A DNA stretch of 64,000 bases, taken from Pontibacter fetidus (GTDB taxonomy: Bacteria; Bacteroidota; Bacteroidia; Cytophagales; Hymenobacteraceae). The position numbers and the translations under genes were made by a program. The notes under the pieces are model-generated. The model searched no databases. It had not been told where the DNA came from and saw only the letters and a list, made by a program, of their open reading frames with translations. Shown one piece after another: positions 12,473-21,524 of this stretch; the stretch's first letter is position 1; every line of letters begins with the position of its first letter. The stretch covers positions 124,001-188,000 of the forward strand of contig NZ_JAAEAA010000003.1 in assembly GCF_010119545.1 (NCBI RefSeq), written 5' to 3'.

Positions 12473-12509
12473 AGCGGTAGGAATTTTAAGATGGAAATAT
12501 TTTAAGAAT

Positions 12510-12680
12510 TACCTCACCCCAGCCCTCTCCTTTTAAAGAGGGCCCCTACCCCCAAAACAGGAGAGGGAGTTTTTCTACTATTCCTTCCCCTTTTTTGTCA
12601 TCCTGGAAGGATCTTGTGCGAAGGGGGAATTTAGCCTTTGCTTTAACACACCCCTACCCCTCTCAAGAGGGGACTTTCTG
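12510..12680. repeat. C-rich dispersed repeats with small hairpins
   Basis: Two short hairpins stand out: GCCCTCT...AGAGGGC near 12520-12545 and CCCCTCTCAAGAGGGG at 12657-12672. The ACCCCTACCCCTC phrasing links this to the units at 1994-2321, 4685-4790 and 20798-20833. Confidence 0.6.
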
Positions 12681-12690
12681 CCTCAGCTAT

Positions 12691-13024
12691 AGTTACAGAC
12701 CATGCGCGGACAGGTCGCGACCTGTCCCTACGAAACTATAGCCATGATAAAAGTCAAAGCGAAGAAAGTTAAAACGATAGCTACAGGTAGCTATCGAACT
12801 GATATCAGTCTTTGGGTTGAGCGCCTCGAGAGGTTCCGGTGCCGTTAGGCATTGCGACGTTAGGAGCAAAGGAAGCGAAAGCAGCGCGATGCCCGAAGAC
12901 GGGGCCTCCCGGCCCGGGAGGGAGCCAAGGTAGAAATGAAACTTTAGGTAAATAGAGCTCCCAGGATTGAAAGAGACTATGGAACAACGGCTTGTTTCCA
13001 ACAGTAGGCAAAGTTAACTATAGG
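12691..13024. repeat. Structured ~333-base repeat, copy A (candidate non-coding RNA)
   Basis: Copy A shares with copy B (20866-21198) the 20-base palindrome at 12708-12727, a 20-base block at 12807-12826, a 34-base identical block at 12881-12914 and the end sequence. Between the two blocks both copies fold alike. P1 pairs TTCC (12834) with GGAA (12871). P2 is TGCC-GTTA-GGCA (12840-12851). P3 is TTGC-10 bases-GCAA (12852-12869). Stem bases differ from copy B in a compensatory way. A further 9-base stem with a CAGG loop lies near 12775, and CCTCCCG pairs with CGGGAGG just after the 34-base block. The strand of any transcript is unknown; on the minus strand the P2 loop reads UAAC. Confidence 0.8.
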
Positions 13025-13039
13025 ACTTATAAGATCCCT

Positions 13040-13124
13040 CGACTAACGCTCGGGATGACATTAGTGGAAACTATAGCTTCAACTATTGTCTTAAATAGAT
13101 TTCTCACGTTGTCCGAAATGACAA
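13040..13124. repeat. Degenerate TCATTTCGA-type repeats
   Basis: CCTCGACTAACGCTCGGGATGACA is followed by a second half reading AGATTTCTCACGTTGTCCG and AAATGACA. The first part recurs beside structured element copy B near 21260. Confidence 0.55.
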
Positions 13125-13148
13125 AAGAGAAACTTTACTCCTAATCCT

Positions 13149-13868
13149 TTAACGAATCACTTTTTTCCCTGATTTTTCAGATAGCAGCGCGATCATCTCT
13201 AATTGCACCGGCTTCAGATAAGTAGTATTGATGTTAGAGTTGTCGTTAAAAGTGATCAGGTACTCCCCTTCATTGCCAAGATATTCGATCTTATCTATCT
13301 GAGACATACTATAGCTGCGTTCTTCCGAAAGGATGTTGGTAACTGTAAGTGTGTTCTCAAAAATCCGGACATGCCATTGCATAACATACCATATAACTAT
13401 ACCAGATAAAGCCAGCATCACCAGAAAGAGAATCCGATATAGCTTGATGGAACCTCGTCCTTCGGATTGCAGCAGGTAGTTTTGGTACAGTTCATAATCG
13501 TGGCCTAGCAACGATCTTTGTACTAGCCTTAGCGGAAGCACAGCTAAAGTTAGGCCCAGAAGTAAGCCCGGCGCAAAAAAAGCCCTGAAGTTAGGAGTAA
13601 GCAGGTGAATCCACCCTCCGGTTGAAGCATGAATAATACTTGAGAACATAGCCAATATACCAGCACTGAACACGGCAAGCACGCAGGCAAAAAAGAAGTA
13701 CGCAATGGTTAGTTTCCACTCCTTTTTCTGGATGTACTGTTGCTCGTCTCTGGTTAACTTTTCTCCTGTTGTACCGGTCAGCAAACGGCGCATTGCAAAA
13801 CGCACAACAGGCAATAAAACAGCAATAGCAAAGAAGCTGATCAACAGGCTTCGTAAGATCTCAAGCAT
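13149..13868 (-). CDS. Membrane protein with C-terminal PH-like domain, function unknown
   Basis: The 239-residue protein has about four membrane helices (residues 8-25, 55-78, 92-112 and 145-165). After the last helix, residues 167-235 form a soluble beta-rich domain (FENTLTVTNILSEERSYSMSQIDKIEYLGNEG...) like the PH-type or YcxB-like cytoplasmic domains of small bacterial membrane proteins. A loop carries LTRDEQQYIQKKEWKLT. It follows the DUF962 gene by 21 bases on the same strand and also has its own -7 box, so expression may be partly independent. Confidence 0.7.
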   Translation of the reverse strand: MLEILRSLLISFFAIAVLLPVVRFAMRRLLTGTTGEKLTRDEQQYIQKKEWKLTIAYFFFACVLAVFSAGILAMFSSIIHASTGGWIHLLTPNFRAFFAPGLLLGLTLAVLPLRLVQRSLLGHDYELYQNYLLQSEGRGSIKLYRILFLVMLALSGIVIWYVMQWHVRIFENTLTVTNILSEERSYSMSQIDKIEYLGNEGEYLITFNDNSNINTTYLKPVQLEMIALLSEKSGKKVIR

Positions 13869-20678: not shown

Positions 20679-20797
20679 AACTATAGTTAGAAGGATAATT
20701 CTATAGTTACCGTTGGTTCAACCAACTCCTCCTTGTCTAAGGCGGAGAGCTTTCTGCATTTACTATAGTTACAGTTATAGTTTCATAGTTGCTGCTG

Positions 20798-20833
20798 GTC
20801 ATCCCCCTACCCCCTTCAAAGGGGGACTTTTCG
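20798..20833. repeat. C-rich dispersed repeat
   Basis: TCATCCCCCTACCCCCTTC followed by AAAGGGGGACTTTT forms a short hairpin and matches the unit upstream of the other structured element. Confidence 0.6.
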
Positions 20834-20865
20834 GTCTTTACCACTTCACAAACTATAGTTTCATA

Positions 20866-21198
20866 ATTATAGACCACGAATCGGACAGGTCGCGACCTGT
20901 CCCTACAGAACTATAACCACGATAATTCTCGAAGCGAGCAAGTTTAAACTATAGTTACAGGTCAATAGTAGAAAGATCACAGTCTTTGGGTTGAGCGCCT
21001 TTGACTTGTTGCGGTGGCGTGAGCCAATCCGAGGCACGAGGATAGCAAGAAGGCAGCAGCGCGATGCCCGAAGACGGGGCCTCCCGGCCGTGAGGGCACC
21101 AAAGCTATAGTTGAAACGATAGGTCAGTAAAGCTCCCAGGAATATAGAAAGTTTGAAAAGAAGGCTTGGTTTTGATAGCAAGTAAAGTCAACTATAGG
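20866..21198. repeat. Structured ~333-base repeat, copy B (candidate non-coding RNA)
   Basis: It matches copy A in length (333 against 334), in the palindrome at 20883-20902, and in conserved blocks at 20981-21000 and 21056-21089. Here P1 pairs TTGC (21009) with GCAA (21045) and extends outward through CTTG with AAG. P2 is TGGC-GTGA-GCCA (21015-21026). P3 is ATCC-9 bases-GGAT (21027-21043). Every helix keeps its pairing in spite of base changes from copy A. On the minus strand the P2 loop is UCAC, which with the UAAC of copy A fits the UMAC tetraloop class. Confidence 0.8.
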
Positions 21199-21386
21199 CT
21201 GCGATAGATTTCTCCTTTCGTCGAAATGACAAAGAAGGAAATATAGGGCAATTAGGATACCTCGACTAACGAGTGGGATAACAATATAGAAACTGTAGAA
21301 CTATAGTTCTGACGCTAGCAGGAGCTACGCACACTGCTAGGTCTTCGAAACCTCAGATTTCTCGCTGCATTCGAAATGACAGAAGA
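21193..21386. repeat. TCATTTCGA-type repeats, rearranged copies
   Basis: ATAGATTTCTCCTTTCGTCGAAATGACA (21205-21232) is one half unit; CCTCGACTAACGAGTGGGATAAC follows near 21260; CAGATTTCTCGCTGCATTCGAAATGACA ends near 21382. The middle piece matches the one beside copy A at 13040. Confidence 0.6.
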
Positions 21387-21524
21387 GAAACTATAAACCA
21401 ACATTTAAATCCAAAATAACCGTTGCTACTGCTACTGCGTACTTAAAATTCACACCTCTGAAAAAATACGGGGGTTTTGATGAACAGAATTAGTACCACT
21501 ATCAATTCTTAAAAGGCAAAGCAT

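Follow-up and report, generated by a model that had tools for sequence, protein, structure and literature searches.

A covarying, pseudoknotted, RNA-like fold in a high-copy intergenic repeat of Pontibacter and its relatives

The window analysed here, a stretch of 64,000 nucleotides from Pontibacter fetidus, carries two related repeats, copy A (12691-13024) and copy B (20866-21198), both of which were found where the original prediction had placed them. They share a 20-base identical block, GGACAGGTCGCGACCTGTCC, at 12708-12727 in A and 20883-20902 in B, and a 34-base identical block, located at 12881-12914 and 21056-21089, respectively. The element itself is a core of about 125 letters (about 110-150 bases) with an RNA-like fold that includes a pseudoknot. 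The regions around the two copies (12500-13150 and 20680-21400) are intergenic mosaics of repeat types, comprising CCCCTACCCCC stretches, REP, the core, and AGATTTCTC...GAAATGACA, and these types are gained or lost as clusters. The parts of both copies are as follows.

12708-12727, no strand assigned: copy A, 20-base palindrome GGACAGGTCGCGACCTGTCC, then CTAC; on the minus strand GTAG plus a hairpin, REP-like
12808-12816, plus strand: copy A, P1 5′ strand, GTCTTTGGG
12817-12820, plus strand: copy A, conserved internal loop, 5′ side TTGA, opposite GATG at 12888-12891
12821-12824, plus strand: copy A, P2 5′ strand, GCGC
12825-12837, plus strand: copy A, P3 5′ strand, including the inner TTCC
12840-12851, plus strand: copy A, P4 hairpin, TGCC-GTTA-GGCA
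12852-12869, plus strand: copy A, P5 hairpin, TTGC-GACGTTAGGA-GCAA
12871-12883, plus strand: copy A, P3 3′ strand
12884-12887, plus strand: copy A, P2 3′ strand
12892-12900, plus strand: copy A, P1 3′ strand, CCCGAAGAC
12903-12914, plus strand: copy A, P6 hairpin, GGCC-TCCC-GGCC; loop CCC at 12908-12910 pairs with GGG at 12920-12922 (pseudoknot)
12920-12922, plus strand: copy A, pseudoknot 3′ strand, GGG
20679-21394, no strand assigned: entire repeat cluster round copy B, as one stretch without counterpart in the relative G192
20883-20902, no strand assigned: copy B, 20-base palindrome, identical to that of copy A
20982-20990, plus strand: copy B, P1 5′ strand
20999-21012, plus strand: copy B, P3 5′ strand
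21015-21026, plus strand: copy B, P4 hairpin, TGGC-GTGA-GCCA
21027-21043, plus strand: copy B, P5 hairpin
21045-21058, plus strand: copy B, P3 3′ strand
21067-21075, plus strand: copy B, P1 3′ strand
21078-21089, plus strand: copy B, P6 hairpin; loop CCC pairs with GGG at 21094-21096
21094-21096, plus strand: copy B, pseudoknot 3′ strand, GGG

The GGACAGGTCGCGACCTGTCC palindrome is kept next to the core in the window's species and is absent from the consensus of the named Pontibacter species. Elsewhere in the window, the octamer AACTATAG, an over-represented word of the HIP1 type, occurs at 109 sites on both strands, within and between ORFs, compared with 2.86 expected from shuffles; CTATAG occurs 104 times compared with 17.3 expected.

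The outermost helix of the core is the 9-bp P1, separated from P2 by a purine-rich internal loop; P3 follows, then a three-way junction from which P4 and P5 branch, and last comes P6, a GGCC-loop-GGCC hairpin whose loop forms the pseudoknot with the bases just 3′ of it. P1 pairs GUCUUUGGG with CCCGAAGAC, P2 is GCGC/GCGC, two unpaired G lie between P3 and P4, and the P4 loop is mostly GNNA; the conserved internal loop is UUGA/GAUG, and in copy A (TTGA/GATG) it could hold tandem G.A pairs. The outer stem P1 is free in sequence, with GUCUUUGGG, GUUUGGCUG, GUCCCUGGC, GUUUUUGCG, and others each accompanied by a matching complement, while the P4 and P5 segments show single-base indels between copies. 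In L123, L138, L239, L117, L182, and L226, a nested insert, GGGGGTAGGGGCCCTC or its reverse complement, sits inside P1 or the internal loop. Three helices and four pair swaps between copies A and B had been predicted originally. The swaps are real on direct reading of both copies, and the helices are present: its P1 corresponds to the inner four pairs of P3 as named here (TTCC/GGAA in A, TTGC/GCAA in B), its P2 to P4 (TGCC/GGCA, TGGC/GCCA), and its P3 to P5 (TTGC/GCAA, ATCC/GGAT). They represent, however, only the apical and inner portion of the fold, the outer P1, P2, P6, and the pseudoknot having been overlooked. The fold was drawn by hand first and then by covariance model. An initial RNAalifold run on a MAFFT alignment had found little structure, which was blamed on misaligned inner segments, and was replaced by the hand-built structure; RNAfold on copy A alone agreed in part with the drawn fold (z -3.68). 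Flanks outside the core yielded no convincing covarying helices.

Pairing is retained across copies beyond what chance would give. Among 41 copies picked from 241 hits (201 segmentable, 86 within the length rules), 94.2% of 1531 cells were paired, where shuffles gave 85.0% and slid controls 38-45%; the corresponding values were 95.7% for 69 copies of the window's genome and 95.3% for 43 matches of divergent copies, all these alignments leaning to the structure as their copies were picked or model-fitted. The divergent matches had 29 of the 34 pairs altered on both sides, and none of 500 shuffles reached the same level on all five measures. Further pair types were no more numerous than in shuffles in four alignment tests, including the 41-copy and 69-copy sets, and the same held for doubly changed pairs in one, the test that included the pseudoknot pairs of alignment A2.

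A tree-based null was provided by 30 alignments simulated column by column along the FastTree tree of alignment A5, which holds 54 broad matches from four families. Fifteen of 7381 column pairs exceeded this null at E ≤ 0.05 per alignment. Fourteen of them fall among the 34 tested structure pairs, the other 20 staying below the threshold, and the fifteenth, the top scorer overall, is the central pair of the pseudoknot, absent from all the models; the fitting of A5 to a nested-structure model biases it towards the 34 nested pairs and not towards the pseudoknot. Covariation above the phylogenetic background, which had been proposed as the check on the fold, is thus present. Pseudoknot pairs were kept in 96.7% of cells in alignment A2, as CG, GC, and UA, and in 90.3% of those in the 69 copies of the window's genome, where they scarcely vary. 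For P1, distant copies gave 111 of 117 positions paired, whereas swapping strands between loci gave 77.1 on average and 97 at most; here the 5′ start was taken from the model match, and a fixed rule placed the 3′ strand in 13 of 16 other-family copies, the 3 misfits being dropped. The predicted fold is established by covariation among the aligned copies.

The same alignments indicate which strand folds. Paired sites on the plus strand of the window held 50 G-T against 7 A-C combinations in alignment A1 and 44 against 2 in A2, with poorly aligned outer P3 pairs excluded, and 73:8 and 79:5, respectively, with all pairs included. Since G-T outnumber A-C on the plus strand, it is this strand and not the minus strand that folds, the reverse of what a minus-strand RNA would give; the minus-strand transcript favoured originally is therefore contradicted. 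P1 of the 13 distant copies, taken alone, has 2 G-T and 3 A-C, counts that are uninformative. As tolerance of G-T is compatible with RNA and with single-stranded DNA alike, it does not by itself separate the two. The folded molecule is most likely RNA, as the pseudoknot and the purine loop are taken to favour.

These results bear directly on the reading of the element as an ordinary DNA repeat or a miniature transposon, in which pairing would be coincidental or derive from palindromic DNA ends. Palindromic repeats are plentiful around the element, and head-to-head pairs of copies in some relatives resemble inverted ends, but neither the 14 structural pairs and the pseudoknot pair above the tree-based null nor the excess of G-T over A-C would be expected of it. 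It is scarcely credible, and covariation and strand bias refute it as far as sequence allows. No inverted pair of 12 bases or more, as in the terminal inverted repeats of a MITE of a DDE transposon, bounds copy A or B.

Known families and coding functions were also considered. Rfam 15 gave no match on the element at the gathering threshold, as the original prediction had anticipated, and a known RNA family is ruled out on this basis; the sole match above threshold in the scanned loci was a small SRP RNA in L281, outside the core, and in E-value mode the best overlap with the core was ceN115, at 26.5 bits compared with a gathering score of 44. The suggestion that the multicopy element holds a covarying structure not recognised before is borne out by the pairing, the covariation, and the lack of an Rfam match. 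A coding sequence was rejected, as no domain was found and the frame is not kept across the single-base indels of P4 and P5; the minus-strand ORF at 12693-13001 had no Pfam match. No description of the element was found among open-licence papers, and its novelty rests on this literature search and on Rfam 15. Plasmid and phage collections held no match to the element, five pattern matches in viral contigs being attributed to chance (best covariance model E 0.32 there).

The element is abundant within the Hymenobacteraceae. A covariance model from relatives of A and B detected 117 copies in the window's genome, which is a minimum given that 150 of 1158 candidates were scored; 69 of these copies were used in the comparisons. 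A pattern scan found at least 104 loci, all Pontibacter among the matches listed. The family scan found matches in 68 of 204 genomes and 4 of 6 genera, 8 of 50 Pontibacter genomes being without a match (of these, G005 and G185 also under a broader model), and 14 chosen genomes of the four genera contained 7 to 131 copies each, with 150 candidates scored per genome. With the first model, the order scan matched 27 of 390 genomes and 4 of 129 genera, all within Hymenobacteraceae. Broader models matched 4 of 395 genomes of the phylum, one being the window's, and 5 of 40 chosen genomes. Scans of more than 40 genomes used stricter filters and scored few candidates, so that absences there are provisional. 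Matches in other families of Bacteroidota came from G034, G221, G255, G263, and G884, with 1 to 5 each; five of these loci helped to build the last model, and the rest, including all from G255 and G263, did not.

Copies in G221 and G255 are unlike each other, and their similarity is confined to the core (from ...CA before P1 to GAGNNCAAAA); the inner domain differs, and most copies retain P1, P2, P3, P6, and the pseudoknot. In G884 and G034, the pseudoknot would hold an A.G mismatch (loop CAGC, opposite GAGCG). Some local arrangements were also observed. In G263, locus L363 carries two direct copies (1501-1616 and 1748-1863) 247 nt apart, and a GATTCCTCGC...GAATGACA repeat lies near related copies. 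At L355 (1750-2730), in G884, a gene encoding a SMODS (CD-NTase) domain (85.1 bits, cut-off 26.5) has a copy upstream of it. At eight loci of several species (L191, L203, L274, L275, L276, L280, L281, and L285), copies stand head to head with their 5′ ends facing, 115-555 nt apart; the 69 loci of the window's genome hold one match each.

Among 175 copies (69 from the window's genome and 106 from named Pontibacter species, 22 of them at locus edges), none lay inside an ORF of at least 1.2 kb, shorter ORFs over the core being excluded. The window's genome had 25 copies between convergent genes, 21 co-directional with their neighbours, 14 antisense, 2 between divergent genes, and 7 at locus edges; the named species had 39, 27, 18, 7, and 15, respectively. 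Compared with the background of intergenic orientations (32 convergent, 156 tandem, and 67 divergent), gene ends are preferred and divergent promoters shunned in both sets. Low-copy genomes contributed 16 copies; read by eye, 10 of them are placed 13-121 nt past a stop codon in the same direction, which suggests a 3′-UTR role, and 6 are not. The element could accordingly be a host-functional RNA, either a 3′-UTR element or a small RNA cut from mRNA ends, that turned multicopy and whose pseudoknot protects or processes transcripts. This reading is possible, if doubtful. It draws on the placement in both Pontibacter sets, on the low-copy positions, and on persistence in several families of Bacteroidota, and the divergence of the G221 and G255 copies outside the core would fit host and mobile RNAs alike. 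However, antisense orientation to both neighbours was seen in 32 copies of the window's genome and the named species, compared with 48 in the sense direction, and both the absence of the core at orthologous places and the private mutations within it speak against this reading.

At the copy B locus, for which 8 of 50 genomes were inspected (G207 was dropped for a different left neighbour), the core is present in G018, G188, G194, and G200 and missing in G192, G008, and G209, both neighbour genes being kept; in G192, it is the stretch equal to the whole cluster that has no counterpart. Comparison of other loci gave 142 rows with the core in both members and 9 rows without it in one. The latter reduce to 7 locus pairs after removal of one duplicate and of L264/L284, a false empty site with the core in L284, and 6 of these pairs were read. 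In a search for target duplications, the empty sites were too diverged for exact ends, and whole clusters were gained or lost; element ends and target duplications are not fixed because the copies sit in clusters of other repeats.

Private changes in 56 copies of the two common subtypes numbered 22 per 136 paired and 13 per 78 unpaired subtype-sites. The 22 changes at paired sites comprise 12 that break the pair, 7 that keep it by wobble or otherwise, and 3 that are compensated. Per site, the core has 0.447 private changes, within the 0.350-0.557 range of its surroundings, whereas mean entropy is 0.39 in the core, 0.63-0.70 in adjoining sequence, and about 1.0 farther out. These small counts suggest that private mutations in resident copies are unconstrained, and stems that are not spared speak against a host RNA; the P3, P4, and P5 types are mixed among copies, which suggests gene conversion, and such conversion could blur this test of neutrality. 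As private changes are alike at paired and unpaired sites and the core resembles its surroundings, selection would act on the spreading lineage and residents would drift. Together with presence and absence at one locus, the unconstrained private mutations suggest a non-autonomous dispersing element, the mechanism of which would involve a putative factor acting in trans.

Searches for recurring neighbours, Y1_Tnp, and RVT_1 identified no partner protein that mobilises the element. Clustering of 1155 ORFs from 241 loci revealed no recurring gene beside the copies; the largest cluster, of 55 ORFs from 54 loci (50 of the ORFs overlapped the core), was taken as chance reading frames over the core itself and rejected as an adjacent partner gene, and the next occurred in 12 loci. 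If an HUH (Y1) transposase, for example a RAYT, moved the element as single-stranded DNA, a strand-specific fold would also be needed, and the G-T bias is compatible with folded DNA. Y1_Tnp matches number 3-8 in each of the 8 element-rich Pontibacter genomes tested, compared with none in 5 of the 8 without a core match in the family scan and 1-2 in the other 3. The association fails in G048 (60 core matches, no Y1_Tnp) and G202 (3 Y1_Tnp, one weak core match), however, and short pseudoknots that show pair swaps are characteristic of RNA. None of 8 Y1_Tnp loci fetched, 4 of them from the window's genome, had a core match or cognate repeats flanking a RAYT gene; the six flanks read hold other palindromes beside the gene, mostly differing from gene to gene. 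No locus has both palindrome halves: CCTGTCC is found a single time in each of L338 and L345, and GGACAGG is absent from all eight. Movement by such a transposase is distinctly unlikely, and the RAYT was set aside as mover, its presence correlating in part and its flanks not matching. The loci L338-L345 carry RAYT-like Y1_Tnp genes, and in L339 and L345, from two Pontibacter species, the gene lies between the same neighbours, which we take to be dnaE-like and thioredoxin genes.

An RNA-like fold at high copy number might also bring to mind a retroelement copied by a reverse transcriptase, but RVT_1 had no match in the window's genome (G000), where it was rejected as mover, and was present in 5 of 12 element-carrying genomes searched; this origin is highly unlikely. 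On a different note, G044 contigs break at a shared TCCTAATCG site upstream of the core, and contig starts (L302-L309, L277, and L288) carry transposase-like sequence ending there. We read it as an IS that targets the repeat, inserted at one shared spot; Pfam gave a sub-threshold Tnp_DNA_bind match at one end of these fragments (20.3 bits, threshold 24) and nothing at the other.

Several known systems resemble the element in part. ERIC and BOX repeats of enterobacteria and pneumococci are likewise intergenic, high-copy, non-coding, foldable, and geneless, and we know of no agreed mechanism for their spread; the Pontibacter element differs in its three-way junction, its pseudoknot with independent pair swaps, and its low-copy relatives in other families of the phylum. 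The guide RNAs of IscB/TnpB elements (OMEGA/HEARO type) are pseudoknotted structured RNAs on mobile DNA too, whereas the present element has no Rfam match to any family and no recurring adjacent gene. Published candidate structured RNAs mostly occur a few per genome, in contrast to the at least 117 copies in one Pontibacter genome. They share with the element their discovery through covariation in bacterial intergenic DNA (PMC6429828, PMC2864571, PMC8040213). REP/REPIN palindromes with RAYT transposases are also high-copy and intergenic (PMC3733652, PMC2817692, PMC3116915). The 20-base block at 12708/20883, followed by CTAC, is a palindrome with a GTAG tag on the minus strand and agrees with the palindrome and GTAG/CGTC tag of REPs, unlike the core, which spans about 125 bases in a complex fold and differs from the palindromes read beside Y1_Tnp genes.

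Taken together, the best explanation of the whole, held with about even confidence, is a structured element folded on the plus strand, a non-autonomous intergenic repeat whose fold is recognised in trans, most likely as RNA. In Hymenobacteraceae, it would have spread as a high-copy repeat through a putative factor supplied in trans that reads the fold; selection for spreading would maintain pairing in the propagating lineage, and single inserted copies would drift. A broader proposal, speculative and rather unlikely, is that a novel type of non-autonomous mobile element, with more than 100 copies in Pontibacter and relatives, uses as its recognition signal a hitherto unrecognised class of pseudoknotted RNA present in several Bacteroidota families, and that its putative mobilising protein reads this RNA fold rather than terminal repeats. 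The element constitutes a large structured family missing from Rfam 15, with hundreds of natural variants defining its fold, and raises the question of what reads this fold, and whether as RNA or as single-stranded DNA. Its many similar copies, its low-copy relatives, and the existence of related species free of it make the family a good place to find the mechanism by which a high-copy structured repeat spreads.
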